Source: Streptomyces sp. SUK 48
Lineage (GTDB): Bacteria > Actinomycetota > Actinomycetes > Streptomycetales > Streptomycetaceae
DNA length: 64,000 bases
Assembly: GCF_009650765.1 (NCBI RefSeq)
Contig: NZ_CP045740.1
Span: 7,292,001-7,356,000, forward strand
Direction: 5' to 3'
Position 1 is the first letter of the stretch, and each line of letters starts with the position of its first letter. The notes beneath the pieces were generated by a model. The model worked only from the letters and a program-made list of their open reading frames with translations, made no database searches and was not told the DNA's origin. Made by a program: the position numbers and the translations under genes. Below are positions 2,847 to 22,192 of this stretch, piece by piece.

Positions 2847-4871
2847 TCAGCCGGTGACCCTCCCGCGCGACCTCAGCTCCGCGCCCCGGCGGCGCACGGC
2901 GTCCGGGGTGCGCAGTTCATGGCCGAGCAGGCGGGCGGCGAGGCCCTCGCGGTCCTCGGGGGCGAGGGCGGTCACCGCGGCGATCAGCTTCTCCGCCGTC
3001 GCCGCGTCGACGCCGGCCGGGAGGGGGTCCTGGCCCAGGAGGCGGGCCGTCTCCCGGTCGAGCGGGGCCGGGGACCCGGCGTCCGGGGCGAGCAGCGCGC
3101 GGCGCAGGGGCTCGGCGGCCTCGTCCGGCAACAGGTCCGCGTAGCGCGGGAGTTCGGCGTCCGGGGCGATCAGCAGCAGGTGCCTGGCGGCGAGCGCGGC
3201 CTCCGGGAAGGGGGTGCGCACGGCGAGCGGGGCCAGCGTCTCGGGGGGCAGGCCGAGGACGCAGCCCGCGTGCAGCAGCACCTCGCGGACGCGGGTCGCG
3301 GCGGGCGCGTCGGGCAGCAGGGCGCCGGTGCGGGCGAGGAACCCGGCGACGGTCTCCTCGGCGGCCGTGCCGTCGAGATGCTCGGTGCCCCGGTAGTAGC
3401 GCGTCAAGTAGGCGTACCACCAGGCGAGTTGGACCTCGTACAGCTCGGCGGCCACCGACTCGTACGCCTCCTGCGGGAGCAGCTCGCGCAGGGCCGGGAC
3501 CAGCTCGCGGTAGAGGAGGCGGATCCAGGTGTGCGGGGAGCGCTGGATGCCCCAGCACTCGCCGTGCGCGTAGTCCCCGATCAGCTCGGCGACGCTCAGC
3601 TCCCCGGCGGCGAACTCGGAGCGCACCCCGGTGCCGGTGGTCTCGAAGCGGTAGAAGTGGTCGGCGGACTCCGGCGGCCGGGGCGTGGGCAGCACCTGGT
3701 CGATCAGGTGCTCCACCTCGGTGTAGCGGGCGTGGAGCCGGTCGAGGTCGAGGGGCAGGCGCGGGAAGAGCGGGTCGGTGAACCGCCGTTTGATCTTGGC
3801 GATCTCCTCCGACAGCGCCTGGTAGAGGAAGACCTTGTCGAAGCGGTGGCTGAACGACAGCCCGATGTACGGGAAGACGGTGCAGCTGCGGCACTCCGAG
3901 CGGTGGCCGACCTCCTCGTCCCGCACCCGCAGGAACTCGGGGTCCTCGACCATTTCACGCAGCGGGCGGTCCCAGGCGACCGAGTTGTCGAAGGCGTGGT
4001 AGCAGGGCAGCACGAGACGCCCGTCGGGGCCGACGGTCAGGATCCGCTTGTTGGCGTAGCAGTCGGTGGGCGCGGTCGGGTCCAGGGTCTCCATGTACTT
4101 GCGGAAGTGCAGGTTGACCAGGGCGAACGGCTGATGCAGCAGCCGTATCAGCTCCTCGGCGATCGGTCCGCCGGTCGGCTCCGACTCGTCCATCCGCCCG
4201 GAGCGGCCCGCCGCGGCGTCGGCGAGCGGCTTGCCGTTCTGCTCGATCAGCTTCAGCTTGCGGGCCGTGCGGTTGGTGTCCCGGACGGTGTCCTGCTCGT
4301 CGAAGTACTCGAACATCCCGGAGAAGTAGACGGTGGTCCGGTTCTCGTGGGCGAAGCGCAGCAGATCCGGTATCTCGTCCACGTTCTCCCGGGTCACCAC
4401 GCAGATCAGCTTGAGGTTGCCGCTGCCGGTGGCGATGACCTTCTGGATGACGTCGAGGGCCCGGTCCAGCGTGGGCACCCCGCGGATCTGCCGGTAGCGG
4501 TCGGGCCGCAGGGTGTCCAGGGAGACGTTCATGGTGTCGACGTGGGGCACGATCGCCTCGATGTGCTGGGCGAAGCGGATGCCGTTGCTGGTGATCTCCA
4601 CGGCCATGCCGAGCGACTTGGCGTACTGCACGATGCCGTCGATGTGCGGGTGCAGCACCGGCTCGCCACCGGTGAAGTCGACGTAGCGCACCCCGAGTTC
4701 GTACAGCTCGTCCAGGATCTGGCGGCCCCGCTCCAGGGTGAGTTCCTCGTAGCCCTTGAACTTGTCGTCCTGCCAGACGTTGCAGTAGCCGCAGAGCGAG
4801 TTGCAGCGGAAGGTGATGTAGAAGCGGGCCGAGGTCAGCCGGCCCCGGTCGGTGGTGGTGCTCGCGGTCAC
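2847..4871 (-). CDS. Radical SAM enzyme with SPASM-like cysteines and a long unassigned C-terminal half
   Basis: Radical S-adenosylmethionine protein of 674 residues from a GTG start preceded by GGAGA seven bases upstream. The [4Fe-4S] motif CX3CX2C is at C23, C27 and C30, and the SAM-binding GGEP is at 68-71. A second cysteine set (C271, C290, then C327 and C330) resembles SPASM or twitch auxiliary-cluster domains, so an additional iron-sulfur cluster is plausible. About 340 residues after position 335 match no domain I recognise; they are rich in Leu, Ala, Arg and Glu and probably helical. It is the last gene of the second cluster unit, 92 bases after the aldo/keto reductase gene. By analogy with BtrN, a radical SAM dehydrogenase of 2-deoxystreptamine biosynthesis, it might oxidise or rearrange a cyclitol or sugar. 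That role is inference. Confidence 0.85.
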   Translation of the reverse strand: MTASTTTDRGRLTSARFYITFRCNSLCGYCNVWQDDKFKGYEELTLERGRQILDELYELGVRYVDFTGGEPVLHPHIDGIVQYAKSLGMAVEITSNGIRFAQHIEAIVPHVDTMNVSLDTLRPDRYRQIRGVPTLDRALDVIQKVIATGSGNLKLICVVTRENVDEIPDLLRFAHENRTTVYFSGMFEYFDEQDTVRDTNRTARKLKLIEQNGKPLADAAAGRSGRMDESEPTGGPIAEELIRLLHQPFALVNLHFRKYMETLDPTAPTDCYANKRILTVGPDGRLVLPCYHAFDNSVAWDRPLREMVEDPEFLRVRDEEVGHRSECRSCTVFPYIGLSFSHRFDKVFLYQALSEEIAKIKRRFTDPLFPRLPLDLDRLHARYTEVEHLIDQVLPTPRPPESADHFYRFETTGTGVRSEFAAGELSVAELIGDYAHGECWGIQRSPHTWIRLLYRELVPALRELLPQEAYESVAAELYEVQLAWWYAYLTRYYRGTEHLDGTAAEETVAGFLARTGALLPDAPAATRVREVLLHAGCVLGLPPETLAPLAVRTPFPEAALAARHLLLIAPDAELPRYADLLPDEAAEPLRRALLAPDAGSPAPLDRETARLLGQDPLPAGVDAATAEKLIAAVTALAPEDREGLAARLLGHELRTPDAVRRRGAELRSRGRVTG

Positions 4872-4963
4872 GATCGGTTCTCCGTCGGTCGGTACGGCGG
4901 GGGAGAGCGGGCGGGCGGGGCCGGACCCCGGGGAGCGGGGCCGGCCCCCGGGAGGCCGGGTCG

Positions 4964-5923
4964 TCAGGGCAGCGGGGTGCCCCGCGCCGTGATCCACAGC
5001 TCGTACCACTCTTCGTGCGTGAGGTCCGGTGCGCGCAGCGCCGCGTCCCGGCAGGCGCGGATCCGGTCGGGGCGGCTGGTGCCGATCACCGGGACGATGC
5101 CGGCGGGATGGCGGGCCAGCCACCACAGCAGGACCGTCTCGGGGGTGGTGTCCTTGCTCCGGGCCAGCCGGCGCAGCAACTCGGCGGTGGGCGAGTCGGC
5201 GTCCCCGGTGTACCGGCCGCCGGCAAGCGCGCCCCACGCCTGGAGCTGGATGCCCCGGTCGACGCACGCCTCGAGGGTGCCCTCCGGGAATCCGTTGGAC
5301 GTGGCCGCCGAGGTGTTGAGCAGCACCCCCGCCTCGACCCAGTCCCGCCGGGCCAGGCTCATCTCCAACTGGTTCGCCACCAGCGGGAGTTCCAGGCGGG
5401 ACTGGAGATGCGTGATCTGCGCGGCGCCCATGTTGGAGACGCCGAACCGGCGCACCAGCCCCTGCCGGTGCAGTTCACGCAGGGCGGCGGCGATCTCGTC
5501 GGGGCCGGTCAGCGGGTCGGGGCGGTGCAGCATCAGGGTGTCGATCACCTCGGTGCGCAGCCGCTCCAGGCTCTCCTCGACCCGCCGGAGGATCGAGTCC
5601 CCGCGCAGGTCGTAGTGGCCCGGCCGGTCCCCCTCGGCGAGCCGGATACCGCACTTGGTCTGCACGGTGATCCGCTCCCGCAGCCCCGGCGTGCGGGCCA
5701 GGACCTCGCCGAACACGGCCTCCGAAGTGCCGAACCGGTAGATGTCCGCGAGGTCGAACACGGTGATCCCGCACTCCAGCGCGGTCTCCACGGCGGCCTG
5801 CGCCCGGTCGACGTCCTCGGCGGTGTACGGCGTACGGTCCCAGCCGCCGCCGAGCCCCATGCAGCCGTAGATCAGCCGCGCCTCGGGAGCGCGGGCGGCG
5901 GAATCGGTGGATACGGTCGTCAA
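4964..5923 (-). CDS. Aldo/keto reductase
   Basis: NADPH-dependent carbonyl reductase of 319 residues. The catalytic tetrad is readable: D57 and Y62 in FDLADIY, K90 in QTKCGI and H133 in LMLHRPD. The C-terminal IGTSRPDRI segment binds the cofactor phosphate. Translation most likely begins at a TTG whose bases overlap the TGA stop of the upstream GMC gene, with AAGGAGG at correct spacing inside that gene, so the two are translationally coupled. In the cluster it could reduce a ketone on a cyclitol or sugar intermediate, possibly one produced by the neighbouring GMC oxidoreductase. The direction and substrate are not visible. Confidence 0.9.
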   Translation of the reverse strand: MTTVSTDSAARAPEARLIYGCMGLGGGWDRTPYTAEDVDRAQAAVETALECGITVFDLADIYRFGTSEAVFGEVLARTPGLRERITVQTKCGIRLAEGDRPGHYDLRGDSILRRVEESLERLRTEVIDTLMLHRPDPLTGPDEIAAALRELHRQGLVRRFGVSNMGAAQITHLQSRLELPLVANQLEMSLARRDWVEAGVLLNTSAATSNGFPEGTLEACVDRGIQLQAWGALAGGRYTGDADSPTAELLRRLARSKDTTPETVLLWWLARHPAGIVPVIGTSRPDRIRACRDAALRAPDLTHEEWYELWITARGTPLP

Positions 5924-7431
5924 CGGGCCGCCTCCTTCAGGGCGTCGGCGAGCAGTTCGGCCGCGGCGAGCACGGGAAGCTGGGTGTTGGCCGCGGGGAC
6001 GGAGGGGAGCACGGAGGCGTCGGCGACGCGCAGGTTGGGAACCCCGTGCACCCGGCCCGCGCCGTCGGTGACCGCCAGCGGGTCGGTCGCGGGGCCCATG
6101 GCGCAGGTGCCGACGGGGTGCCAGTAGGTGCCGAGCCGGGCACGCAGCCCGGCGTCGGTCAGCCCGGAGGCGGGGGCCCCGGACGCGGCGGCCCCGCACG
6201 TGGCACCGGCCAGCGGGGCGAGCGCCGAGGTGGCGGCGAGCCGTTCGGCGATCTCCAGGCCCTCCCGCAGCACCGCCGCGTCCCGGCCGTCCGGGTCGGT
6301 GAGGAACCCGGGGTCGATGTCGAGGGGGTCGGCGGGGTCGGCCGAGTTCAGCCGGACCCGGCCCCGGGAGGCGGGCTTCATCAGGAACGCGGCGATCCCG
6401 GCCTCGTACTCGCCCGGCGGCAGGCTGCCGAAGAGCGGGTCCCCGGCGGAGGGCAGGATGTGCAGGTCCCAGCCGTCCGCCGGGCAGTGGGTGCTGGCCG
6501 CCCGGATCAGCATCCGGCTGACGTACAGCTCGCCCGCCTTCTCCTGCGCGGCCAGCGCCGCGTTGAGGTCCGGGGTCGGGGCGAGCGGGACGAACACCCC
6601 CGGCTGGTCGGACAGGTTGGTGCCGACACCCGGCAGGTCCACCTCGGGCCGCACGCCTCGCTCGCGCAGCTCGTCCGCCGGTCCGATGCCGCTGCGCAGC
6701 AGCAGTCCGGGGGAGCCGAAGGTGCCGCAGGCGAGGACATAGGTGTCGGCGGTCAGCGTCGCGCGCCGCCCGTCCACGAGGACCTCGGCGCCCACGACCC
6801 GGCCGCCGTCGAGCACCAGCCGGTCCGCCGTGGTGCCGCCGAGGATCGTGAGGTTGGCGCGGGAGCGGGCCGGACCGAGATAGCCGAAGGCCGCGTTCCA
6901 GCGCAGCCCGTCGAGCGCGTTGAGCAGCGGGGTGCCGCAGCCGGGGGAGCCCGGGGCGGCCATGTCCACGTCCGCGTAACCGAGTTCACGGGCCCCGGCG
7001 AGCGCCGCGCGGGCCCAGACGCCGAACTCCCGCTCGGGCACGGGCCGCAGCCGCATGGCCGCCGCGGCCCGCTCCCGGTAGGGCGCCATGGCGGCGGCCG
7101 ACCAGCGGGGGCCGCCGGCCCGGGTCCACTCCTCGTGGTCGGCGGCCGAACCCCAGGTGTGCCAGCAGCCGTTGACGCAGGAGGAACCGCCGAGGACCCG
7201 GGCGCGCAGCCGGTGCACGGCGACCCCGCGCTCCCACATGTGGTCGCGGGGCAGGGCGTGCGCGTCGCGCAGCGAGCGCGGCCAGTCCGAAGGAGCGGCG
7301 CCGTGGTCGGGCCCGGCCTCCACCAGGCAGACCGTGCGGGCCGGGTCCTCGCTGAGCCGCGCGGCGAGCACACAGCCCGCCGCGCCGCCGCCGAGCACGA
7401 CCACGTCGTGGTGGCCGGTGGCCTGGCTCAT
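5920..7431 (-). CDS. GMC family FAD-dependent oxidoreductase
   Basis: Glucose-methanol-choline oxidoreductase of 503 residues. The FAD-binding GGGAAG is at 14-19, followed by the acidic end of the Rossmann fold in VCLVEAG. The C-terminal catalytic pair is present: H438 in YWHPVGTCAMG and N483 in AANTQ. Enzymes of this family oxidise primary or secondary alcohols of sugars, polyols and sterols. There is no signal peptide, so it acts in the cytoplasm. It overlaps the PfkB kinase gene by ATGA and the reductase gene by TTGA. In this setting oxidation of a cyclitol or sugar hydroxyl to a ketone before amination is a reasonable guess, since the first unit encodes an aminotransferase. GMC enzymes are not part of the acarbose pathway as I know it. 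Confidence 0.9.
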   Translation of the reverse strand: MSQATGHHDVVVLGGGAAGCVLAARLSEDPARTVCLVEAGPDHGAAPSDWPRSLRDAHALPRDHMWERGVAVHRLRARVLGGSSCVNGCWHTWGSAADHEEWTRAGGPRWSAAAMAPYRERAAAAMRLRPVPEREFGVWARAALAGARELGYADVDMAAPGSPGCGTPLLNALDGLRWNAAFGYLGPARSRANLTILGGTTADRLVLDGGRVVGAEVLVDGRRATLTADTYVLACGTFGSPGLLLRSGIGPADELRERGVRPEVDLPGVGTNLSDQPGVFVPLAPTPDLNAALAAQEKAGELYVSRMLIRAASTHCPADGWDLHILPSAGDPLFGSLPPGEYEAGIAAFLMKPASRGRVRLNSADPADPLDIDPGFLTDPDGRDAAVLREGLEIAERLAATSALAPLAGATCGAAASGAPASGLTDAGLRARLGTYWHPVGTCAMGPATDPLAVTDGAGRVHGVPNLRVADASVLPSVPAANTQLPVLAAAELLADALKEAAR

Positions 7432-8363
7432 CCGCTCACCTCGGCGACCTGCTCGCCGGCGTCCTGCTCGGCGACCCGGGCGAGGAGTCGCTCCCGGGAG
7501 ATGGCGTCGGCCCGGGTCGAGGGCACGGTGCAGGCGTGGGCGCCCGCGATCGCGCCGTAGCGGGCGCAGCGCAGCGGGTCCAGGCCCTCCAGCCAGGCCA
7601 GCAGGAAGGCGGCGGCGAAGGCGTCGCCCGCGCCGTTGGAGTCCACGACGGGCTCCGGCGGGGCGACCGCGGGCACATGGGTCAGCTCGCCGTCGGCCAG
7701 CAGATGGGCGCCCTCGGCGCCCGCGGTGGCCACCACGATCCGGGCCCGGCCGCGCGCCGCGACGTCCCGCATGGTGTGCTCCGGGTCGGCCAGCGCCGTG
7801 GTGGACAGGAAGACCAGGTCGGCGGCGAGCGCGAAGGGCTCGTGGTACGGATTGACGCCGTCCCAGTTGTGCAGGTCCGTCGAGACGGTCAGCCCGGCCT
7901 CGCGCAGCACCGGCAGGGCGTGCGAGCACGGGTGGGTGATGACCACGTGCGCGTGCCGGCTGGTCGCGGCCAGCGCGCGCAGGGTGTCCTCGGGCAGCCG
8001 GTCGGCCTCCTGGCTACGGGTGTCGTCGTACAGGGACAGCCGCCGCCCGTCCGGGCCGACCAGGTTGACGGCGCGCTTGGTGCCGGCGGGCGAGGGCACG
8101 TCGGTGAGCGGGATGCCCCGGTCCCGGTGCAGCGCGCGCACCAGGTCGCCCTCCGGGTCGGCGCCGACCAGGTCGATGTGGTGGGCGCGCAGGCCCAGGG
8201 CGCTGACCCCGAGCGCGACGAAGTCTCCGCTCTGCCCGGCGCGGGTCACGATGCCCGGCCGGATCATGTAGCTGTCGGCGTAGGGGACCGGCAGCTCCGG
8301 GACGTGGACGACGGTGTCCACGCCCGCGCCGCCCAGGACGAGGACGTCAATGTCGGTGGTCAT
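7428..8363 (-). CDS. PfkB/ribokinase family carbohydrate kinase
   Basis: ATP-dependent sugar or nucleoside kinase of 311 residues. The N-terminal VLVLGGAGVDTVV and AGQSGDFVALGVSALGLR match the family opening. The second PfkB signature is DSNGAGDAFAAAF near residue 245, with the catalytic base Asp and anion-hole glycines. It is the first gene of the second cluster unit and lies directly behind a promoter with an operator-like inverted repeat. The acarbose cluster also encodes ribokinase-fold kinases (AcbK, and the cyclitol kinase AcbM from another family), so phosphorylation of a cyclitol, of the product for self-protection, or of an imported sugar are all possible. The sequence does not choose between them. 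Confidence 0.9.
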   Translation of the reverse strand: MTTDIDVLVLGGAGVDTVVHVPELPVPYADSYMIRPGIVTRAGQSGDFVALGVSALGLRAHHIDLVGADPEGDLVRALHRDRGIPLTDVPSPAGTKRAVNLVGPDGRRLSLYDDTRSQEADRLPEDTLRALAATSRHAHVVITHPCSHALPVLREAGLTVSTDLHNWDGVNPYHEPFALAADLVFLSTTALADPEHTMRDVAARGRARIVVATAGAEGAHLLADGELTHVPAVAPPEPVVDSNGAGDAFAAAFLLAWLEGLDPLRCARYGAIAGAHACTVPSTRADAISRERLLARVAEQDAGEQVAEVSG

Positions 8364-8421
8364 GGCAGTCGGCTCGTTTCTCTCGCGTCGCTCGGGTTGG
8401 TGAGTGTCGCTCGGGTGGGTG

Positions 8422-8483
8422 AGTCAAGCAGTCGCCCACACCGCTGGCAATAACTTGCAGCAATTTTCAGCAAGTTGCACCAG
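8422..8483 (-). promoter_or_regulatory. Promoter and operator-like inverted repeat before the PfkB-GMC-AKR-radical SAM unit
   Basis: On the minus strand a -35 TTGCCA (8445-8450) is followed after 17 bases by a -10 TTGACT (8422-8427), reading toward the PfkB gene. Overlapping and upstream of the -35 is an inverted repeat, CTGG-N4-AACTTGC (8444-8458) and GCAAGTT-N3-CCAG (8470-8483). It also contains two CAGCAA copies spaced 10 bases apart. The minus-strand CAAGTTATTGC at 8447-8457 matches the equivalent position of the promoter at 22132-22192 in 10 of 11 bases. This 168-base gap is the only break longer than 100 bases inside the cluster. Confidence 0.65.
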
Positions 8484-8531
8484 TGGGTGGGCCGGTCGGA
8501 GGGCGGACGCGCACGATCAGAGGACGGGCGT

Positions 8532-9329
8532 TCAGGGGAACAGGCGTTCAAGGACCGCCGCGACCCCGTCCTCCTCGTGACCCGGCGCGATCTCGTCGGC
8601 GTGGCGTTTCAGCTCGGCGTGGGCGTTGCCCATCGCGACCCCGTGCCCCGCCCAGGCGAGCATCGGGATGTCGTTGGGCATGTCCCCGAACGCGACCGTG
8701 TCGGCCGCCTTGAACCCCAGCCGGTGCCCCGCCGCGGCGAGACCGCTCGCCTTGTCCACGCCGTCGGGCAGCAGCTCGACCATGCCCTCACCGGAGTGCG
8801 TGACCCCGATCAGCCCGGCGCACACGGAGAGCGCCAGCGCAGCCAGGCCGTCGTCGTCCAGCGTCCGGCTGCGGATGAGGACCTTCTCCACGGGCCGCGC
8901 CCACAGCCCCGCCGGGTCCTCCACCAGCCGCCAGCCGTGCCGCACCCGTTCGCCGAACCCCGGCGTGACCAGGAACTCCCCGGTGAGCCCCGCGGTCACC
9001 ACTGCGAGCGCCAGCGGGCCCGTCGCCTCGGCGATCCGCGCCACCAGCGCGCGTACGACGCCCCGGTCGAGGGTCGCCGAGGACAGCAGCCGGTCGGCGC
9101 CGACGTCGTACAGCTGCGCCCCCTGCCCGCAGATCGCGAGCCCCCGGTAGCCGAGCGGGGCCAGCAACGCGCGGCATCCCGCGGCCGGACGGCCCGTCAC
9201 CACCAGGTGCCGGGCGCCCCGGGAGGCGGCCCGGGCGAGCGCGGCCCTGGTGCGCGGGGAGACGGTGAGGTCGCCGCGCAGCAGGGTGCCGTCGAGGTCG
9301 GTGGCGACGACCGTGTACCGGGGCGTCAT
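8532..9329 (-). CDS. HAD superfamily (Cof type, IIB) phosphatase
   Basis: Haloacid dehalogenase-type hydrolase of 265 residues. Motif I is DLDGT (nucleophile and acid Asp) near residue 10, motif II is the Thr in VVTGRP, and motif IV is GDMPNDIPML near the C terminus. The insertion between motifs fits the Cof/IIB cap type, which usually acts on sugar phosphates and other small phosphoesters. It is the last gene of the 13-gene unit and overlaps the NUDIX gene by four bases. A cytoplasmic phosphatase fits removal of a phosphate from a cyclitol or pseudosugar phosphate late in the route, comparable to the role assigned to AcbJ in acarbose synthesis. That parallel is inference. Confidence 0.9.
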   Translation of the reverse strand: MTPRYTVVATDLDGTLLRGDLTVSPRTRAALARAASRGARHLVVTGRPAAGCRALLAPLGYRGLAICGQGAQLYDVGADRLLSSATLDRGVVRALVARIAEATGPLALAVVTAGLTGEFLVTPGFGERVRHGWRLVEDPAGLWARPVEKVLIRSRTLDDDGLAALALSVCAGLIGVTHSGEGMVELLPDGVDKASGLAAAGHRLGFKAADTVAFGDMPNDIPMLAWAGHGVAMGNAHAELKRHADEIAPGHEEDGVAAVLERLFP

Positions 9330-9871
9330 CCGGCCCCGCCCCGGTGCAGGCCCAGCAGGGTGTACGCGGCCAGGGTCGCCGCGTCCGTGACCCGTCCGGC
9401 GCGGACGAGGTCGCGCCACTCGCCCGGTTCCGCCCGGCGCTGGCGCATGTCGGCCTCGGTGACCTCGCGTTCGGGCGGCCCCTGCGTCAACTCCTCGGCG
9501 AGGAAGACGTTGCAGCCCTGGCTCGCGTAGCCGTAGGCGACGTGCACCAGGCCCAGGTACGTCATCCGGGCGGCCCGCAGCCCGGTCTCCTCGCGCAGTT
9601 CGGCGCGGGCCAGTTCGAGCGGCGGCGCGCCCGCGTGCCCGGCGGGCCAGGAGCCCTGCGGGAACTCCCAGTAGCGGCCCGCGACCGGATAGCGGTACTG
9701 CTCGACCAGATGCAGCGCGCCGTCCTCGTCCCGGGGGATCACCAGGGCGTAGTCCGGCTTGTCCACGACACCGTAGACGCCCTCGCTGCCGTCGGGGCGC
9801 CGGATGTCGTCCTCCCGCACGCTCATCCACGCGTTGCGGTAGACCTCGCGGGACCGCACGGTACGGATCAC
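9326..9871 (-). CDS. NUDIX hydrolase, ADP-sugar pyrophosphatase-like
   Basis: NUDIX protein of 181 residues. The box region reads LELARAELREETGL, keeping the metal-binding REE core but with Ala where the first Arg of REUXEE usually stands, a variant common in ADP-ribose and ADP-sugar pyrophosphatases. The N-terminal half (VYRNAWMSVREDDIRRPDG) is also typical of that subgroup. The start is a GTG overlapping the TGA of the upstream reductase gene. A nucleotide-sugar hydrolase beside a GlgC-like nucleotidyltransferase might recycle an unwanted NDP-sugar or correct its misactivation. This is a guess from position. Confidence 0.85.
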   Translation of the reverse strand: MIRTVRSREVYRNAWMSVREDDIRRPDGSEGVYGVVDKPDYALVIPRDEDGALHLVEQYRYPVAGRYWEFPQGSWPAGHAGAPPLELARAELREETGLRAARMTYLGLVHVAYGYASQGCNVFLAEELTQGPPEREVTEADMRQRRAEPGEWRDLVRAGRVTDAATLAAYTLLGLHRGGAG

Positions 9872-15010: not shown

Positions 15011-16452
15011 CCGCCGGCCGGGAGACCGGGGGCCTCCACGGCGTGCCGCAGGTTGATCGCCGCGTGGTAGGCGCGGTCGTGGGCGTAGGCGTAGTCCAGC
15101 TCATGGATCAGCCGGCGCAGCCTGAGCAGCCGCCAGGCCGGGTGCCCGTCCCGGTCCGGGCCCGCGTCGGCCAGCAGGTTCCCGGCCCGCGCGGCCCACA
15201 GCCCCGCCGCCCGCCGCAGCCGGGCCAGAACGGCCAGCCGCTCCTCGGTCCAGCCGGGCGTGTCCGGGCGGACGCCCGCCGCCTGGAGCAGCGCGGTGCG
15301 GCAGGTGTCCTCCGGGCCCATGCCGAGGACACCGGCCGCGTGGTCGGAGAACTCGTCGGCCGTGAAGATCTCCAGCCCCCGGGTGAGGGCGGCCAGGTCC
15401 TGCCACGGCGACTGCGCGGTGGCCGGGTCGGCCGGGTCGGCACGCGGGGTCGACAGGTCGATCACGCACAACTCCCATCCGCCGCCTGCGTGTTCGGCGC
15501 GCAGCACATGGGACAGGTGCAGGTCGCCGTGGCAGGGGCCGGCGGGCCAGGGGCGCGCCGGCAGCCCGGCTGTGCGGGTCAGTTCGCGGGACAGTCCGGT
15601 CGCCGCCGCCTCGCGCACGGCCACCGGGTAGCGGGTGTCGGCGAGGAGCCGCGGGGTGAGCCGGGCGAGCCGTTCACCGGTCTCGGCGAGCACCGCTGCG
15701 GCGGGGAACTCCGGGTGCGGGCCCAGCCGTTCGGCCAGCTCCCGGTGGAAGTCGCGCAGGAAGTACCCGGTCTCCCGCAGCGGCGCCACCAGATCCCGCT
15801 GGGAGGCGTCGACGGCCGGACCCGGCTCGGCCCCGGACGCCAGCAGCGGCCACAGCGCCCGTATCCCCGCCCGCAGGGGCACGTTGAGCCCCTCGCCCTC
15901 GGCGAACCGGTACAGCACCCCGAGCGGTTCCCGCGCCCCGGTCGCCGCGTCCACGTACGTGTAGTCGCCGACCGGCCGCTGGGTGCGCCCGCCGTCCGCC
16001 ATCAGGCGCAGCAGCTCGGCCTCCCGGTTGCCGGTGCCGATCCGCCGGTAGCTCTTGTGGGTGTGCGCGCTGCCGCCCAGGTCGATCAGGGACAGCGCGT
16101 TGGAGCACCAGCCCGGGTCGAAGGGCAGCGGGCCCCGGTAGGCGGCGGGCGCGCCCCGGAACTCGATCGCGTTTCCGCGCAGCGTCGGCAGCCGCAGCCC
16201 CGCGCGCAGCGCGTCCACCACGGCGCGGTCGAACGCCCCGGTACCGGCGGCCGGCCGCCCCGGGTCGGCGTCGAGGACCGGGACGAACCAGCGGGTGGCG
16301 CCCGCCCCGACCAGCAGCAGCCGGACCTCGCCGAGCACCGCCTGGTCGTACAGCTCGAAGGGGCCGCGGCGCCCGGCCTCGTCCATCCAGGGGGCCGCGT
16401 GCAGCAGGCCGGCGGTCGCGGGCGCGGGGGCGCCGGGCAACAGGGTGTCCAA
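15007..16452 (-). CDS. Maltokinase-like phosphotransferase
   Basis: Kinase of 481 residues with the aminoglycoside-phosphotransferase fold. The catalytic loop CHGDLHLSHVL is near residue 320, followed by VIDLSTPRADP in place of the usual metal-binding DFE or DFD. The length and the region of DPADPATAQSPWQDLAALTRGLE resemble actinobacterial maltokinase (Mak/Pep2), which makes maltose 1-phosphate. The start is a TTG three bases after the stop of the permease gene, with GGGAG at correct spacing; no better start is available. A maltokinase-like enzyme beside GlgC-like and GlgA-like enzymes points to alpha-glucan-type chemistry: it might phosphorylate the anomeric position of a disaccharide or cyclitol. 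A role in self-resistance by product phosphorylation is also possible. Confidence 0.78.
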   Translation of the reverse strand: MDTLLPGAPAPATAGLLHAAPWMDEAGRRGPFELYDQAVLGEVRLLLVGAGATRWFVPVLDADPGRPAAGTGAFDRAVVDALRAGLRLPTLRGNAIEFRGAPAAYRGPLPFDPGWCSNALSLIDLGGSAHTHKSYRRIGTGNREAELLRLMADGGRTQRPVGDYTYVDAATGAREPLGVLYRFAEGEGLNVPLRAGIRALWPLLASGAEPGPAVDASQRDLVAPLRETGYFLRDFHRELAERLGPHPEFPAAAVLAETGERLARLTPRLLADTRYPVAVREAAATGLSRELTRTAGLPARPWPAGPCHGDLHLSHVLRAEHAGGGWELCVIDLSTPRADPADPATAQSPWQDLAALTRGLEIFTADEFSDHAAGVLGMGPEDTCRTALLQAAGVRPDTPGWTEERLAVLARLRRAAGLWAARAGNLLADAGPDRDGHPAWRLLRLRRLIHELDYAYAHDRAYHAAINLRHAVEAPGLPAGG

Positions 16453-16455
16453 GGG

Positions 16456-17271
16456 TCAGCTCCCGGTCATCTCGTAACGGTCGACGCCCCGGTGCCAGAC
16501 GACCAGGGCGAGCGTCACCGCGCCCGCGGTCACCACGAACAGCCAGGGCAGCAGCCCGGTGCGCCCGAAGAGCAGATAGGTCGCGGGCACGTAGGCGGTG
16601 AAGGCGTAGGGCAGCAGCCAGGTCAGCAGCCACCGCAGGGAGGGGTGGTACAGGTCGAGCGGGTAGCCGGAGAAGTCGCCCAGCTGGTTGGCCGCGTACA
16701 GGGCCGGGAAACTGTTCGTCGTCCAGAACGCCAGCGACGCGAACAGCGTCTTGACGGAGGCGAGGACCAGCGTCCCGCACAGCACGAGCAGCGGCAGCAG
16801 CAGCCACTGCACGGCGCTGAGGCGCAGCTCGAGCCGGTCGGCCGCGTACCAGGTCAGGGCGGCGCCGGTGCACAGCTCGCCGAAGCCGTCCGGGTACAGG
16901 AACCGTTCGGACAGCAGCGAGAACAGCGGATGCACCGGGCGGATCAGATAGCGGAAGAAGTCGCCGTTCTGCACCAGCTTGCGGGCCATCACCCACAGCT
17001 GGTCGGTGAACATCCGGTCCAGGCCGCGCGGCAGCAGCGAGAAGCCGAGCAGGAACAGCACCTGGTGGTAGTCCCAGCCCGCGATCCGGGGCGTCTGCCG
17101 GAACACCATGCCGACCACGGCCACCTGGCAGACCACCCGCAGCACCAGACCGCCCGCGCCGAGCAGGAAGTCCATCCGGTACTCGGTCAGCCGGTGCACG
17201 CTGACGGCGCTGAGGTGCCAGGTCAGCCGGGCGTAGCGGGCGGCCGTCGTGAGGGGTCCCGGTGCGGTCAT
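16456..17271 (-). CDS. ABC-2 type exporter permease
   Basis: Integral membrane protein of 271 residues with about six hydrophobic helices, for example around residues 31-55, 62-80, 140-175 and near the C terminus. The N-terminal segment and the FFRYLIRPVHPLFSLLSERF stretch resemble the DUF990/ABC-2 permeases that work as heteromeric pairs with a neighbouring permease and an ATPase. It overlaps the second permease gene by four bases. Together with the next two genes it should form a two-permease, one-ATPase exporter in the cytoplasmic membrane. From memory the acarbose exporter AcbWXY has the same composition. Confidence 0.88.
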   Translation of the reverse strand: MTAPGPLTTAARYARLTWHLSAVSVHRLTEYRMDFLLGAGGLVLRVVCQVAVVGMVFRQTPRIAGWDYHQVLFLLGFSLLPRGLDRMFTDQLWVMARKLVQNGDFFRYLIRPVHPLFSLLSERFLYPDGFGELCTGAALTWYAADRLELRLSAVQWLLLPLLVLCGTLVLASVKTLFASLAFWTTNSFPALYAANQLGDFSGYPLDLYHPSLRWLLTWLLPYAFTAYVPATYLLFGRTGLLPWLFVVTAGAVTLALVVWHRGVDRYEMTGS

Positions 17272-18080
17272 CCGCCCAGCACCTCCACCCGTCGTACGGC
17301 ACCGCGCCAGGCCAGCGCGGCCAGCGCGGCGAGCGCCAGCGCCCAGCCGAGCTGGACGGCGAGGATGCCGGCCGCGCCCGCCGCCCCGTCGTAGCGGCCG
17401 AGGAGCAGCCGCAGCGGGCCGTCGACCATGCCCTGGAACGGCAGCACCCGGGCCACCGCCGCGAGCGGGCCCGGCATCAGCGCGAGCGGCACCACCTGCC
17501 CGGCGAAGAAGGCGACCACGCTGTCCTTGACGACGCGCACGCCCCAGATGTTGGTGGTGACGAACCCGGCGAGCCCGACCAGCAGGTTCACCCCGAAGCC
17601 GATCACCAGGGACAGCGCGGCGGAGACGGCGAACAGCAGCACGCCGCCCCAGGTCGGCCTGGTCAGCGGCAGCAGCAGCGCGTACAGCGCGACGACGGGT
17701 ACGGCGACCAGCGTGGCGTTGGTCAGCGAGACCGGCAGCCCGGTGGCGAACCGGGACAGCGGATAGCTGACCGGGCGCAGCAGCGAGACCGCGATGTCCC
17801 CGCGCTGGACCTCGCCGGAGACCTCCTCGTCCACCCGGCTGGCCTGCATCAGGCCGAGCACCTGGGCGAGCAGCACATAGGTCGTCAGCCGCGGCAGGTC
17901 GTAGCCGCCGGGCAGCCCGCCCGGCCGGCCCCCGTACACCGCGCGCCACAGGAAGACCTGGACGCCGACGGCGGTGGCGGCGGTCAGGGCGTTGATCAGG
18001 AAGGTGGAGCGGTACTGGAGCAGGGACTGGAGGCTGGAGGCCGCGAAGGGGGTGTAGCGGCGCAGGGCGGAGGCGTTCAC
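17268..18080 (-). CDS. ABC-2 type exporter permease
   Basis: Second permease, 270 residues from a GTG start that overlaps the TGA of the ATPase gene. About six membrane helices are visible (residues near 25-45, 60-80, 110-140, 145-170, 180-200 and 230-255). The segment VSGEVQRGDIAVSLLRPVSYPLSRFA is the cytoplasmic coupling region typical of these proteins. It is similar in length and plan to the other permease but not a recent duplicate. The pair most likely forms one heterodimeric channel with the ATPase. Confidence 0.88.
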   Translation of the reverse strand: MNASALRRYTPFAASSLQSLLQYRSTFLINALTAATAVGVQVFLWRAVYGGRPGGLPGGYDLPRLTTYVLLAQVLGLMQASRVDEEVSGEVQRGDIAVSLLRPVSYPLSRFATGLPVSLTNATLVAVPVVALYALLLPLTRPTWGGVLLFAVSAALSLVIGFGVNLLVGLAGFVTTNIWGVRVVKDSVVAFFAGQVVPLALMPGPLAAVARVLPFQGMVDGPLRLLLGRYDGAAGAAGILAVQLGWALALAALAALAWRGAVRRVEVLGG

Positions 18081-19072
18081 CCGGCCGCCCGGCCTGCGTA
18101 GATGCGTCGCAGCACCATCTCCACGTCGGGTTCGGGGGCGACGCAGTCGATGACGTCGAAGCGGTCGAGGAGGAAGCCCATCACCTGGCGGGCGGTCCAA
18201 CGGGCCACCGGGTACTCGACCTTGATCCGCCCGTCCTCGGCCAGGGTCGCCGAGGCGCCGCCAAGTCCCTTTTCGATCAGGGCGATCGCCTCGTCGGCGG
18301 AACCGTGGTGCTCGAAGACCACCGCCCTGGTGTCGGCGGTGCGCAGCAGCTCGTGCAGGGTCCCGCGGTGCACGACCTCGCCGTGGTTGACGACGAGGAC
18401 CCGGTCGCAGATGGCGGTGATGTCGCCCATGTCGTGGCTGGTGAGCAGCACGGTGGTGCCGAGTTCGGCGTTGACGTGGTTGACCAGCCTGCGCACGGCC
18501 TCCTTGAGCACCAGATCGAGGCCGACCGTCGGCTCGTCCAGGAAGACCACCTTGGGGTCGTGCACCAGGCTCGCCGCGACCTCGGCCCGCATCCGCTGGC
18601 CCAGACTGAGCTGCCGCACCGGGGTGTTGCCCAGTGCGTCGAGGTCCAGCAGCTCCTGGAACAGGGCCATGTTGCGCCGGTAGACGGCGTCCGGGATCTC
18701 GTGGATCCGGCGCAGGATGCGGAACGAGTCCGGCACCGGCAGGTCCCACCACAGCTGGCTGCGCTGCCCGAACACCACCCCGATGTTGGCCGCGTTGCGC
18801 CGCCGCTCCCGGTACGGCTCCAGGCCCGCGACCAGGGCCCGGCCCGAGGTCGGCGTCATGATCCCGGTGAGCATCTTCACCGTGGTCGACTTGCCCGCGC
18901 CGTTCGCCCCGATGTACGCGGCCTTCGTCCCGGCCGGGATCTCGAAGGACACCCCGGACACGGCCCGCACCAGCCGGTGCTCCCGGCTGAACAGCGTGCT
19001 GAGGCTGCCCAGCAGACCGGGCTCGCGTTCGGCGACCTTGAACTCCTTGACCAGGTTCTCCGCGACGATCAC
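18077..19072 (-). CDS. ABC transporter ATP-binding protein
   Basis: ATPase of 331 residues. Walker A is GANGAGKST near residue 55, the signature is LSLGQRMRAE, Walker B is VVFLDEPTVGLD and the switch His is in LLTSHDMGD. The GVVFGQRSQLWWDLP segment after the Q-loop and the C-terminal regulatory region of about 90 residues are characteristic of the ABC-2/DUF990 exporter subgroup (as in DrrA-like and AcbW-like proteins). It overlaps the aminotransferase and first permease genes by four bases. It should energise export of the cluster product, which could also serve as self-protection; no other resistance gene is evident. Confidence 0.92.
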   Translation of the reverse strand: MIVAENLVKEFKVAEREPGLLGSLSTLFSREHRLVRAVSGVSFEIPAGTKAAYIGANGAGKSTTVKMLTGIMTPTSGRALVAGLEPYRERRRNAANIGVVFGQRSQLWWDLPVPDSFRILRRIHEIPDAVYRRNMALFQELLDLDALGNTPVRQLSLGQRMRAEVAASLVHDPKVVFLDEPTVGLDLVLKEAVRRLVNHVNAELGTTVLLTSHDMGDITAICDRVLVVNHGEVVHRGTLHELLRTADTRAVVFEHHGSADEAIALIEKGLGGASATLAEDGRIKVEYPVARWTARQVMGFLLDRFDVIDCVAPEPDVEMVLRRIYAGRAAG

Positions 19073-20370
19073 CGGGGGTCCCCCGTGGCCAGTTCGAGCG
19101 CGCGGTCGAGCAGCGTGATGCCCTCGTCGAGGAGTGCGCGGTCGATGGTGAACGGCGGTGCCAGGCGCAGCACATGACCGCCGAGCGCGGTACGCAGCCC
19201 GAGGTCCAGCGCGTGCCGGTACACGGCCCGGGCGATCTCGGGGGCCGGTGTCCGGCTCGTCCGGTCGCGCACGAACTCCAGCCCGTGCAGCAGCCCGAGC
19301 CCGCGCACCTCGCCCAGCACCTCGTACCTGGCGTGCAGTTCGGCCAGCCGTTCGTCCAGTACGGCGCCCAGCTCGCTCACCCGGGCGAGCAGCGTGTCCC
19401 GGCGTACGACCTCCAGCGTGGCCTTCGCCGCGGCGATGCCCAGCGGATTGTTCGCGTACGTCGACGCGGTGGACCCGGCGCGGCCCGCCTCGGGATGCCG
19501 CAGCACCGCGGACCGGCCGGCCAGCGCGGCGAACGGGAACCCCGAGGCCAGGCCCTTGGCGAGGGTCACGAGATCCGGCTCGACGCCGAATCGCTCACTG
19601 GCCAGGAAGGTGCCGGTGCGGCCGCCGCCGGTGAGCACCTCGTCGGCGACGAGCAGCACCCCGTTCTCCCGGCAGCTGTCGGCGATCTGCTCCCAGTAGC
19701 CCGGCGGCGGCACGATCACCCCGGCCGCGCCGAGCACCGGCTCGAAGACCAGCGCGGAGATGTTCGGTTTCTCCGCGATGTGCCGGCGCACCAGCGAGGC
19801 GCAGCGCACCCCGCAGGAGGGGTACTCCAGCTCCAGCGGGCAGCGGTAGCAGTAAGGGGAGTAGCCCAGCACGCTGTTGCCGGAGAACGCCTGGTGGCCG
19901 ATGTCCCAGTGGACCAGCATCCTGGCCCCCTGCGTCTTGCCGTGGAAGCCGTAGCGCAGTGCCCCGATCCGGTTGCGACCCGGCTCGGCGACGGCCTGCA
20001 CGGCGCGCAGCGCGGCCTCCACCACCTCGGCGCCGGTGGAGAAGAAGGCGTACGTGTCCAGTTCCTCCGGCAGCAGGTCGGCGAGCAGATCGCACAGGGC
20101 GGCGCGGTCGGCGGTGGCGAAGTCGTGCACGTTCCACAGCCGGCCGGCCTGCTCGGTGAGCGCGGCGACGACCTCGGGATGGCAGTGGCCCAGCGACTGG
20201 GTGAGGGTGCCGGCCGCGAGGTCGATGTACTGGTTGCCGTCCAGATCGGTCAGCACCGCGCCGCGGCCCTCCACGAAGACCCGCCGCCCCAGCGCGGACT
20301 CCTCCGAGGCGCCGGGTGCGAGGCGCGCCGACTCCCGCTCCAGCAGCTCTCGTTGACGCGGGCCGGTCAT
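19069..20370 (-). CDS. Class III PLP-dependent aminotransferase
   Basis: Aminotransferase of 433 residues in the acetylornithine/4-aminobutyrate group. The cofactor Asp is in LVADEVLTGGGRTG, and the PLP-binding Lys is in TLAKGLASGFP. FSTGAEVVEAALRAVQA is the phosphate-binding segment. A cysteine-rich stretch (CYRCPLELEYPSCGVRC) in the middle is unusual and is seen in some GabT-like sugar or cyclitol aminotransferases. In the cluster it should place nitrogen on a keto-cyclitol or keto-sugar. The acarbose aminotransferase AcbV is also GabT-like as I recall, which supports the comparison. It overlaps the cupin and ATPase genes by four bases each. Confidence 0.9.
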   Translation of the reverse strand: MTGPRQRELLERESARLAPGASEESALGRRVFVEGRGAVLTDLDGNQYIDLAAGTLTQSLGHCHPEVVAALTEQAGRLWNVHDFATADRAALCDLLADLLPEELDTYAFFSTGAEVVEAALRAVQAVAEPGRNRIGALRYGFHGKTQGARMLVHWDIGHQAFSGNSVLGYSPYCYRCPLELEYPSCGVRCASLVRRHIAEKPNISALVFEPVLGAAGVIVPPPGYWEQIADSCRENGVLLVADEVLTGGGRTGTFLASERFGVEPDLVTLAKGLASGFPFAALAGRSAVLRHPEAGRAGSTASTYANNPLGIAAAKATLEVVRRDTLLARVSELGAVLDERLAELHARYEVLGEVRGLGLLHGLEFVRDRTSRTPAPEIARAVYRHALDLGLRTALGGHVLRLAPPFTIDRALLDEGITLLDRALELATGDPR

Positions 20371-20783
20371 CCGGCACCGCCCAGCGGACCGACCTCGAAG
20401 ACCAGCAGGGTGATGTCCTCGTCGCCGTCGTTGGCCAACCCGTGCTCGCCGTAGGGGCGGTTGGGCACCACGTCGCCCGCGCGCACGGTGAACTCCGCGC
20501 CGTCCAGGGTCATCCGGCCCCGGCCGGAGAGGATCACGTACGTCTCCTCGTCGTCCGCGTGCCGGTGGGTGCCGATGGAGGTGCCCGGGGGCAGCACGAC
20601 CAGGTCGATGAACGCGACCGGCGCCTTCGCCCCGGCGCCCGGGTAGGCGCGGTGGGCGCGGATCGTGCCGGTGCCGCCGTGGTCGCCGGTCACGTCACGC
20701 AGCAGCCCGTCGTACAGGTTGGTGACGCGGGTACGGACGGGTTCGGGCGTCGGGGCTCCCGGCTCCGGCAGGGCAGGACTCAT
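20367..20783 (-). CDS. Small cupin-domain protein
   Basis: Single-domain cupin of 138 residues. The metal-binding motif 1 appears as GTHRHADDEETYVILSGRG (two His and a Glu), and motif 2 as GDVVPNRPYGEHGLAN with the distal His. Such proteins may be isomerases, epimerases, dioxygenases or sensors. Position between the cyclase and the aminotransferase suggests action on an early cyclitol or sugar intermediate, for example epimerisation. The sequence does not identify the reaction. It follows the cyclase gene by 58 bases and overlaps the aminotransferase gene by four. Confidence 0.85.
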   Translation of the reverse strand: MSPALPEPGAPTPEPVRTRVTNLYDGLLRDVTGDHGGTGTIRAHRAYPGAGAKAPVAFIDLVVLPPGTSIGTHRHADDEETYVILSGRGRMTLDGAEFTVRAGDVVPNRPYGEHGLANDGDEDITLLVFEVGPLGGAG

Positions 20784-20841
20784 CGCGGTACGGCTCCAAG
20801 GCGCTTGCGGGGAAGGGGAGTTCGCGGGGAGGGGGCCGGAG

Positions 20842-22068
20842 TCAGCACGCGGCCGTGAGCGGCGCGGCGGCGTTCCCGGTCCGGGCGGCCAGGGCGTCCA
20901 GTGCCTCTTCGAGCGCGGCCCCGGGGATGTCGTCCAGGTCGTCCACGAAGACCGCCGAGCCGATCCCGTCCGGCACCACGAGGTGCAGCCGGCGGCCCCG
21001 GCGCTCCCAGGACGCCTTCAGGGCCCGGTCCATCAGCGCGGGCGTGCAGGTCTGCGGGTCGAACACGGGCAGTCCGAGCGCGTCGATCAGGGCGACGATC
21101 CGCTCGCAGTCCCCGGCGTCCAGCAGGCCCAGCACACGGGCGAGTTCAGTGGAGAGGGCCATGTCGATCGCGACGGACTCGCCGTGCGCGATCCGGTACT
21201 CGCTGGCCGTCTCCAGCACGGGCCCGAAGGTGTGCCCGAAGTCGACGAGCCGGGCCAGGTCGTGCTCGCGCAGGTTCGGGCACAGCTCCTCCATCATGAG
21301 CCGCATCGAGGTGCGCAGCACGTAGTCCTCGACGCCGCGCCGCCCGAGCCCGTCCTCGGCGAGCGACGCCGGGGCGGCGTACGGCCGCTGGAAGACCTGC
21401 GGGCACTCCTCCAGGGTGCGCAGCAGCCGGGCGTCCTTGATGATCGCCATCTTGGCGATCTCGCCGAGGCCGCAGCGGATGTCCCGGGGGGCCAACGACC
21501 GCAGGAAGGCGGGGTCGTTGAGGGAGGCGTGCGGGGGGTGGTAGGCGCCGAGCATGTTCTTGGTGCCCAGGGCGTTGACGCCGGTCTTGACGCCGACGCC
21601 CACGTCGACCTGGCCGACCAGGGTGGTGTTGACCTTCACATAGCGCACGCCCCGGCAGTAGATCGCCGCCGCGAACCCGACCAGGTCGCAGGTGACGCCC
21701 CCGCCGACGGCGAGCATCACGCCGCCCCGGTCCAGGCCGGCCGACTTGGCCAGCGCGCAGATCTCCTCGACGGTCTCCATGCGCTTGCGGTCCTCGCCGC
21801 CGGCCAGGACGTGCACGCTCCAGGTGCCCGGGGCGAACCGCGCGTCCAGGTAGGCGCGCAGCTGCCGCCCGTACAGCCGGTCGACGGCCGGCCCGGTGAA
21901 GGCGACCACGCGGCGCCCCTCGCAGCACTCGGCCAGCAGCGGGTTGCCGGGGGAGAGCACCTCGTGGGTGAGATCGACACGGTACGAGGTTCCGTCCGGG
22001 GCGCGGAGGGTGAACCCGTTGTCATCGCCTCGGACCCCGGATTCGGCGGCGGATGTCTGCGCCGTCAC
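20842..22068 (-). CDS. Sedoheptulose-7-phosphate cyclase superfamily enzyme (2-epi-5-epi-valiolone synthase-like)
   Basis: Sugar-phosphate cyclase of 408 residues in the dehydroquinate synthase fold, from a GTG with GAGGAG just upstream. The NAD-binding GGGVTCDLVGFAAA is at 122-135. The expected zinc ligands are E203 (GLGEIAK), H279 (DFGHTF) and H295 (HGES). The sequence DFGHTFGPVLE with the Pro after HTFG, and AIDMALS after the HGE, match the 2-epi-5-epi-valiolone synthase (EEVS) group better than primary AroB, which has LGHTFGHA and HGEAVAIGM. EEVS turns sedoheptulose 7-phosphate into the C7-cyclitol scaffold of acarbose and validamycin. Close relatives (2-epi-valiolone or desmethyl-4-deoxygadusol synthases, 2-deoxy-scyllo-inosose synthase) cannot be excluded. 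As first gene of the unit it defines the cluster's chemistry. Confidence 0.87.
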   Translation of the reverse strand: MTAQTSAAESGVRGDDNGFTLRAPDGTSYRVDLTHEVLSPGNPLLAECCEGRRVVAFTGPAVDRLYGRQLRAYLDARFAPGTWSVHVLAGGEDRKRMETVEEICALAKSAGLDRGGVMLAVGGGVTCDLVGFAAAIYCRGVRYVKVNTTLVGQVDVGVGVKTGVNALGTKNMLGAYHPPHASLNDPAFLRSLAPRDIRCGLGEIAKMAIIKDARLLRTLEECPQVFQRPYAAPASLAEDGLGRRGVEDYVLRTSMRLMMEELCPNLREHDLARLVDFGHTFGPVLETASEYRIAHGESVAIDMALSTELARVLGLLDAGDCERIVALIDALGLPVFDPQTCTPALMDRALKASWERRGRRLHLVVPDGIGSAVFVDDLDDIPGAALEEALDALAARTGNAAAPLTAAC

Positions 22069-22131
22069 GACACTCCTCGAATCGGCCGGATTCACCACCG
22101 GCTGGCCGTCAACTGCGATCAACAGGGCTTG

Positions 22132-22192
22132 AGTTAAACAGGTGATCGAGAGCCCTGCAAGAACTTGATGAAACTTGCTGCGGATTCTTGCA
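22132..22192 (-). promoter_or_regulatory. Promoter and operator-like inverted repeat before the 13-gene cyclase unit
   Basis: On the minus strand a -35 TTGCAG (22155-22160) and a -10 TTAACT (22132-22137) are 17 bases apart and read toward the cyclase gene, whose start is 64 bases further on. A perfect inverted repeat, TGCAAGAA (22156-22163) and TTCTTGCA (22185-22192), overlaps the -35. Inside it CAAGTT occurs twice with a 10-base period on the minus strand. The minus-strand CAAGTTCTTGC (22157-22167) sits at the same place relative to -35 as CAAGTTATTGC in front of the second unit. Geometry suggests repression by a factor covering the -35. Confidence 0.68.

Follow-up and report, generated by a model that had tools for sequence, protein, structure and literature searches.

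A probable acarbose-type C7N-aminocyclitol gene cluster lacking acbI and acbQ in Streptomyces sp. SUK 48

What does an acarbose-like gene set make when the genes for the tail of the molecule are missing from it? The question is raised by 17 open reading frames with strong coding signal that run on the minus strand from position 22068 to position 2847 of a 64,000-nucleotide stretch of Streptomyces sp. SUK 48 (hereafter the window: bases 7,292,001-7,356,000 of a single-contig genome of 8.34 Mb). A sequence-only reading of this DNA had recognised 17 genes on one strand, named their families and proposed a cluster for a pseudosugar related to acarbose. The coding signal and the Pfam and NCBIfam searches, from which the families given below were assigned, confirm the gene number, the strand and the families, and name one member of the set that had been left unnamed, an RmlD-type reductase (9868-10758). 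Twelve of the genes have acarbose counterparts (AcbC, V, W, X, Y, U, S, R, M, P, J and K), which supports the proposed kinship. Judging from these sequences, the locus is an acarbose-type, AcbS-dependent C7N-aminocyclitol cluster with a probability of about 0.8, and its product is probably a relative of acarbose.

Gene content and kinship of the cluster

The acb names used here follow the operon order acbVUSRPIJQKMLNOC and the biosynthetic pathway as they appear in the available parts of two studies (PMC7682106 and PMC9200736, respectively). Identity to the counterparts of Actinoplanes sandaracinus, to which the Actinoplanes percentages below refer, ranges from 79% for AcbV to 36% for AcbC and 34% for AcbM; the two permeases reach 60 and 53%. 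The AcbS-like protein, the sole glycosyltransferase of the 17 genes, none of which encodes a GT20-like pseudoglycosyltransferase, is also 63% identical over 99% of its length to protein P0157 of Actinoplanes sp. SE50 and falls apart from AcbI in a tree. The features, from the cyclase end, are:

22131-22191, minus: operator GCAAG-N8-GCAAGTTTC-N8-CTTGC (22157-22191) joined to promoter box TTGC-N16-TGTTTAACTC (22131-22160) before the cyclase gene
20842-22068, minus: sedoheptulose 7-phosphate cyclase, assigned to the 2-epi-5-epi-valiolone synthase (EEVS) kind, AcbC/GacC counterpart (Pfam DHQ_synthase; ValA as best match in the Protein Data Bank, PDB; tree)
20367-20783, minus: cupin, putatively for a cyclitol epimerase or dehydratase step (Cupin_2; 55-67% identity in Streptomyces loci L013-L045 where found; part of the cyclase-cupin-ROK block of Streptomyces clusters)
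19069-20370, minus: class III aminotransferase, AcbV counterpart (79% to the Actinoplanes gene at the acbV place)
18077-19072, minus: ABC exporter ATPase, AcbW (68% to Actinoplanes)
17268-18080, minus: ABC exporter permease, AcbX/Y (ABC2_membrane_6)
16456-17271, minus: ABC exporter permease, AcbX/Y (ABC2_membrane_6)
15007-16452, minus: AcbU counterpart, 481 residues, by homology and position a putative valienol 7-phosphate 1-kinase (58% to the Actinoplanes gene at the acbU place in the order of PMC7682106; Pfam and PDB searches gave no match)
12902-15010, minus: pseudoglycosyltransferase, AcbS counterpart, GlgA-like, 702 residues (63% to Actinoplanes AcbS; tree)
11803-12909, minus: valienol 1-phosphate nucleotidyltransferase, AcbR counterpart (NTP_transferase/GlgC-like; 74% to Actinoplanes)
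10755-11810, minus: ROK cyclitol 7-kinase, AcbM counterpart (ROK; 34% to Actinoplanes, 59-66% to Streptomyces clusters)
9868-10758, minus: RmlD-type reductase, putatively for a cyclitol dehydration or reduction step (RmlD_sub_bind)
9326-9871, minus: NUDIX hydrolase, AcbP counterpart (70% to the Actinoplanes gene between acbR and acbI)
8532-9329, minus: HAD phosphatase, AcbJ counterpart (59% to Actinoplanes)
8421-8450, minus: promoter/operator box TTGC-N16-TGCTTGACTC before the PfkB gene, one of exactly two pattern matches in the window
7428-8363, minus: PfkB kinase, AcbK counterpart, heading a probable second unit (58% to Actinoplanes)
5920-7431, minus: GMC flavin oxidoreductase (67-71% relatives near 12 other acarviosin-type clusters)
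4964-5923, minus: aldo/keto reductase, AKR (family match; present only with GMC)
2847-4871, minus: radical SAM enzyme (four further invariant cysteines; C-terminal helical domain without clear PDB match)

The genes had been described as nearly all coupled by overlaps of 4 or 8 bases. This stands for 12 of the 16 junctions (4 bases in ten, 8 bases in two) when they are counted with the furthest-upstream fitting starts, the gene caller favouring later starts and thus fewer overlaps for some genes; the other four are gaps of 168 (HAD-PfkB, the largest), 92 (AKR-radical SAM), 58 (cyclase-cupin) and 3 bases (permease-AcbU-like). The genes probably form two transcription units, one from the cyclase to the HAD phosphatase and one comprising PfkB, GMC, AKR and radical SAM.

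The cyclase had been placed in the sedoheptulose 7-phosphate family, as databases already label it, and not among dehydroquinate synthases; scores, controls and tree agree with this placement. Its best PDB relative is ValA (4p53, 243 bits), followed by 5tpr (153.6), 3okf (143.9), other dehydroquinate synthases with lower scores and 2d2x, an inosose synthase (91). In the controls, ValA is matched at 426 bits by the cyclase of an Actinoplanes acarbose-type cluster, and the genome's own AroB, encoded elsewhere and separate from the cluster cyclase, scores 426 bits against dehydroquinate synthase and 106 against ValA. In a tree of 14 rows, the window cyclase, ValA, AcbC and 5tpr are split from AroB and the cyclases of distant type-3 loci (see below) with support of 99/99. 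The protein 5tpr, which we take to be another sedoheptulose 7-phosphate cyclase, is named dehydroquinate synthase in the PDB, yet groups with ValA and AcbC. Within this side, the window cyclase joins proteins of S. coelicoflavus (P0094) and S. dimorphogenes (P0091) in a divergent group outside the AcbC group. The tree grouping and the AroB control scores argue against an AroB identity; by these comparisons the cyclase is of the EEVS kind.

Genome contigs were scanned with an alignment of the glycosyltransferase, which gave 59 loci, and tblastn of all 17 proteins together with gene calling on the extended loci distinguished three cluster types. Type 1, that of the window, has 11 relatives: S. 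griseofuscus, S. malaysiense, S. murinus, S. cupreus, Kitasatospora GP82, K. purpeofusca, Streptomyces NRRL S-118, F-6131, S. hygroscopicus NBRC 3401 and genomes G269 and G192. A genome search for the 17-gene order, as the sequence-only reading had proposed, found it complete in eight of them, so that the arrangement is not due to chance; acbQ is inserted in four of these eight, one of which has acbI too. As for the incomplete ones, the S. murinus locus (L005) ends at a contig end after ten genes, an insertion splits the S. cupreus cluster, and K. purpeofusca retains a mere remnant of the radical SAM gene, with no intact copy. In S. cupreus (L100), several kilobases separate the cyclase, the cupin and one copy of the aminotransferase from the other genes, among them a second, shorter aminotransferase. 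Type 1 forms one clade in an AcbS tree built by a quick method, with F-6131 and K. purpeofusca inside. It occurs in five of 392 genomes of the genus of the window, the latter included (AcbS at least 76% identical), and also in Kitasatospora. Hence, the clade is uncommon and not a one-off.

Type 2 is of the acarbose/acarviostatin kind. In S. alfalfae XY25, what seems to be one such cluster recurs on three contigs (L025, L026 and L027), probably through assembly duplication. Type 3, from Allokutzneria and Streptomyces 8K308, is distant: its loci (L051:2085-19400, L050 and L053) hold an AroB-side cyclase, radical SAM, AcbV-, AcbS-, PfkB-, GMC- and luciferase-like proteins, without AKR, and possibly represent another pseudosugar pathway starting from a different cyclase product.

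RmlD matches (E<=1e-45) were found in 32 of the 34 genomes examined, S. coelicoflavus included, and were absent from Actinoplanes G009 and Bdellovibrionales G033. The cupin and the RmlD-type enzyme are therefore probable Streptomyces replacements for AcbO, AcbL and AcbN. An AcbL orthologue (E<=1e-40) is present in three of the 34 genomes, none of them type 1.

Missing genes, the redox unit and shared boxes

According to the available part of PMC9200736, AcbI puts the amino sugar onto maltose in acarbose synthesis and AcbS then couples the result to GDP-valienol. A search of the SUK 48 genome for AcbI gave AcbS itself as sole match. Eleven type-1 genomes were searched whole (SUK 48 included, S. 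murinus left out), with AcbI as query or, for G192 and G269, with AcbS: eight hold no AcbI-like match beyond AcbS, and two hold AcbI. S. hygroscopicus has a 45% relative at a dTDP-sugar locus without cyclitol genes. In the same strain, a second locus besides the cluster (L097:8200-17000) carries AcbB-, AcbA-, AcbQ- and AcbS/I-like genes, cyclitol genes being absent from the 20 kb read. The two genomes with AcbI are F-6131 and K. purpeofusca, where it is 58% identical to that of Actinoplanes and accompanied by acbQ in the acarbose order P-I-J-Q-K. Four relatives (S. cupreus, Kitasatospora GP82, G269 and G192) have acbQ alone, and the clusters of SUK 48, S. griseofuscus, S. malaysiense, S. hygroscopicus and S-118 have neither gene. 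Since two clade members keep both genes in the acarbose order, the window lineage probably lost them. The 168-base gap between HAD and PfkB lies at the place of acbQ and contains no convincing remnant of it.

Moreover, none of the type-1 stretches read, the window cluster included, contains AcbA or AcbB, which bears out the earlier statement that the cluster has no dTDP-glucose genes. RmlB and RmlA-like genes are encoded elsewhere in the SUK 48 genome, and RmlB lies outside the cluster in all 11 type-1 genomes (in S-118, one copy about 16 kb away); as 252 of 295 genomes of the genus also have RmlB, its presence is uninformative. AcbS and AcbV bear no sequence sign of altered substrates. Among sites invariant in eight AcbI-bearing clusters, those changed in all seven AcbI-less ones number 1 of 279 in AcbS, 0 of 226 in AcbV and 2 of 173 in AcbR. 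Outgroup-invariant AcbS sites are changed at 10-18 of about 300 positions in AcbI-less rows and at 17 of 299 in two AcbI-bearing type-1 rows.

The genes added to the acarbose-type set are those for GMC, AKR and radical SAM. Both GMC and AKR occur in 21 of 34 genomes, GMC alone in three and neither in ten, so AKR is never found without GMC. The pair is present in 12 of the 22 genomes searched beyond the type-1 clade and type 3 (Hamadaea included), and GMC in all nine type-1 genomes searched for it, SUK 48 among them. The PfkB kinase is 69-75% identical to copies adjoining GMC in S. alfalfae, S. griseoluteus and Hamadaea. In the radical SAM enzyme, C23, C27 and C30 (CxxxCxxC) and C271, C290, C327 and C330 are invariant in 46 sequences; this cysteine pattern, presumably of the Twitch type, would fit an enzyme with one auxiliary cluster. 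Outside its cluster, F-6131 holds another GMC-AKR pair (69 and 73%; genome G006, contig C14:26765-29172), and database protein P0285 joins radical SAM and GMC domains, perhaps through a deletion across neighbouring genes.

Both probable units are preceded by a common box. The promoter box TTGC-N15-18-TG[CT]TT[GAC]ACTC has two matches, and no more, in the 64 kb, one ahead of the cyclase and the other ahead of PfkB. Since the patterns were drawn by eye, the following counts are descriptive, and several of the regions counted derive from one genome. The box is present in 13 of 14 type-1 regions, 32 of 38 acarbose-type regions and 2 of 16 others, and is missing from all 100 Markov copies made of the window. 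The compound operator is present in 8 of 10 type-1 loci and 17 of 34 acarbose-type ones (three of the 17 being the S. alfalfae contigs), with no match in the 16 other loci or in the 100 Markov copies. The position before both units is a stronger point than these counts. A box before PfkB is found in the window, S. griseofuscus, S. malaysiense, S. hygroscopicus, S. cupreus, F-6131, K. purpeofusca and G269. The compound operator precedes acbV in the 14 acarbose-type loci where its place is known, Actinoplanes included; in the A. sandaracinus locus L012, which has no promoter box, it lies at 6948-6981, some 255 bases ahead of acbV. The half sites of the compound operator are similar to the CTTGC(A/T)G sites of the MalR-type repressor AcrC, which the available part of the source treats at acbE-acbD and malE-acrC only (PMC5526262). 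Such shared boxes are a handle for finding the regulator and for switching the clusters on.

Proposed pathway and its alternatives

In the pathway that we infer, the cyclase would convert sedoheptulose 7-phosphate into 2-epi-5-epi-valiolone, to be phosphorylated by the ROK kinase. The cupin and the RmlD-type enzyme would then carry out epimerisation, dehydration and reduction to valienol 7-phosphate, in place of the Actinoplanes AcbO, AcbL and AcbN. The AcbU-like kinase would phosphorylate C1, the HAD enzyme remove the C7 phosphate and the AcbR-like enzyme form GDP-valienol. The AcbV-like aminotransferase would make a 4-amino sugar, probably dTDP-4-amino-4,6-dideoxyglucose or a derivative, from a 4-keto precursor supplied by RmlA and RmlB encoded elsewhere, and the AcbS-like pseudoglycosyltransferase would form the C-N bond between this sugar and the GDP-valienol unit. 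With AcbI and AcbQ lost, we expect a product that either has no tail or acquires one by another route. GMC, AKR and the radical SAM enzyme, all of the second unit, may tailor the product or its cyclitol, the AcbK-like kinase may phosphorylate the product for self-protection and the WXY transporter would export it. Our best guess from these homologies is thus an acarviosin-type pseudosaccharide, tail-less or differently tailed and oxidatively tailored. More specifically, we tentatively suggest a clade whose pseudoglycosyltransferase works without AcbI on a different acceptor, and a tail-less or adiposin-type aminocyclitol modified by GMC/AKR and by a radical SAM enzyme with an undescribed helical domain. 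We know of no earlier radical SAM step on an acarviosin-type compound, nor of a gene cluster for such a product; if the suggestion is true, both would be firsts.

Several observations weigh against the inferred pathway. AcbS shows no sign of a new acceptor, which suits a product without a tail no less than one whose tail is supplied externally; acbQ was not found in the window cluster and was not searched for elsewhere in the genome. A supply of RmlB in trans is possible, and the RmlB of SUK 48 sits beside an NDP-hexose 2,3-dehydratase and EryCIII-like transferases, in what looks like another biosynthetic cluster. Furthermore, the compound operator is present in G192 and missing from G269, S-118 has neither motif, Kitasatospora GP82 has no box before PfkB, and the motifs were counted afterwards in the sequences from which they had been drawn by eye, which is not a blind test.

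Among the other explanations, an ordinary dehydroquinate synthase or a 2-deoxy-scyllo-inosose (aminoglycoside) cluster is very improbable: the Pfam label DHQ_synthase would suit it, and aminoglycoside clusters also hold class III aminotransferases, GMC and radical SAM enzymes, but the cyclase scores far higher with ValA than with the inosose synthase or 3okf, 5tpr groups with ValA and AcbC, AroB is separate, and the cluster has counterparts of AcbS, AcbR and AcbU. A tailed acarviosin oligosaccharide (acarbose or acarviostatin) might still be made, with a glycosyltransferase or glucanotransferase encoded elsewhere standing in for AcbI. We consider this rather unlikely, given that eight of the 11 genomes have no AcbI relative elsewhere, that AcbQ is also absent from the cluster of the window lineage and that, in contrast to the acarviostatin-type loci read, the 17 genes include no amylase. 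It would agree with an AcbS unaltered at invariant sites and with the retention of AcbQ, which modifies acarbose according to the available part of PMC10146171, in six of the 11 relatives.

An adiposin-type route, which together with an outside source of the tail is the chief alternative, can also be envisaged. Adiposin-2, from S. calvus, is acarbose with glucose replacing deoxyglucose (PMC8234114, available part). For such a product, GMC would oxidise the C4 hydroxyl of glucose, AcbV would aminate it to 4-amino-4-deoxyglucose with the C6 hydroxyl kept and AcbS would couple this to GDP-valienol, and AcbA, AcbB and AcbI would therefore be dispensable. The absence of these three from the cluster, the retention of AcbV and AcbS and the presence of GMC in all the type-1 genomes searched for it are what this route predicts. 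It is nevertheless unlikely: the 67-71% GMC relatives also lie beside clusters with AcbA, AcbB and AcbI, AcbV has not drifted from the acarbose-type enzyme, F-6131 and K. purpeofusca have AcbI yet no AcbA or AcbB in the stretch read, and we know of no citable precedent for a GMC enzyme oxidising a sugar at C4. No gene cluster for adiposin was found in the open-licence literature. Alternatively, the second unit may serve protection or recycling, GMC and AKR for instance interconverting 1-epi-valienol and valienol shunt products, and not tailoring. The unit accompanies the AcbK-like kinase in several clusters, it follows cyclase-cupin-ROK-RmlD in others, and shunt valienols are documented for acarbose in the available part of PMC7081202. 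Since GMC and AKR are absent from ten of the 34 genomes, S. coelicoflavus and Actinoplanes among them, and the radical SAM enzyme would be left unexplained, we find this role rather unlikely.

Comparison with known systems

Acarviosin-type compounds are glucosidase and amylase inhibitors, one of which, acarbose, is a widely used diabetes drug. New inhibitors can be predicted from a conserved variant in which the tail enzymes are gone and redox and radical SAM enzymes are added; the variant can also be viewed as a natural test of the acceptor range of AcbS. The locus had been called possibly undescribed. This holds in part: the available part of PMC9200736 already mentions AcbS genes without an AcbI partner, a subclade that is probably that of the window, and gives neither gene content nor product there. 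In searches of the open-licence literature, no paper was found that assigns this gene order to a known product, reports a product or describes a GMC-AKR-radical SAM unit in clusters of this kind. An acarviostatin-like cluster has been noted in Kitasatospora sp. SUK42 (PMC8545861, available part).

The differences from acarbose listed by the sequence-only reading need revision. NUDIX and the maltokinase-like protein are themselves acarbose genes (AcbP and AcbU), the cupin is common to Streptomyces acarviosin-type clusters, and GMC and AKR recur in the 12 outside genomes. What sets the cluster apart is that it has no AcbI, AcbQ, AcbA or AcbB and that it carries the probable PfkB-GMC-AKR-radical SAM unit. 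The sequence-only reading had overlooked that acbI and acbQ are missing, and had not noted the RmlD gene, a probable second transcription unit or the operators shared with related clusters.

A divergent FAD amine-oxidase-like gene (22571-24136) adjoins the cluster. Relatives of it lie at the matching place in L003, L004 and L011 and were not seen in the other type-1 loci read; it is probably a chromosomal neighbour.

Compared with the acarbose cluster of Actinoplanes (A. sandaracinus L012/L070/L071), the window cluster shares the 12 Acb counterparts and the orders U-S-R and P-J-K. It lacks AcbI, AcbQ, AcbA and an AcbL orthologue, has cupin and RmlD in place of AcbO and AcbN, adds GMC, AKR and radical SAM, and has a cyclase of merely 36% identity; the A. 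sandaracinus stretch read is also without AcbB. With the acarviostatin/trestatin/gac-type Streptomyces clusters (L013-L045), it has in common the V-W-X-Y-U-S-R and cyclase-cupin-ROK(-RmlD) blocks (41-81%), the promoter/operator boxes and, in 12 genomes, GMC-AKR; NUDIX had no tblastn match in these loci. Those of S. olivaceoviridis, S. cinerochromogenes, S. alfalfae and S. griseoluteus, the four examined at length, differ by AcbB, AcbI, AcbQ and amylases, with a clear AcbA in three. Finally, the validamycin cluster (ValA, ValL/VldE) shares an EEVS-kind cyclase, a ROK kinase and a GlgC-like nucleotidyltransferase (PMC9200736, available part), whereas its pseudoglycosyltransferase resembles GT20 and that of the window is AcbS-like.

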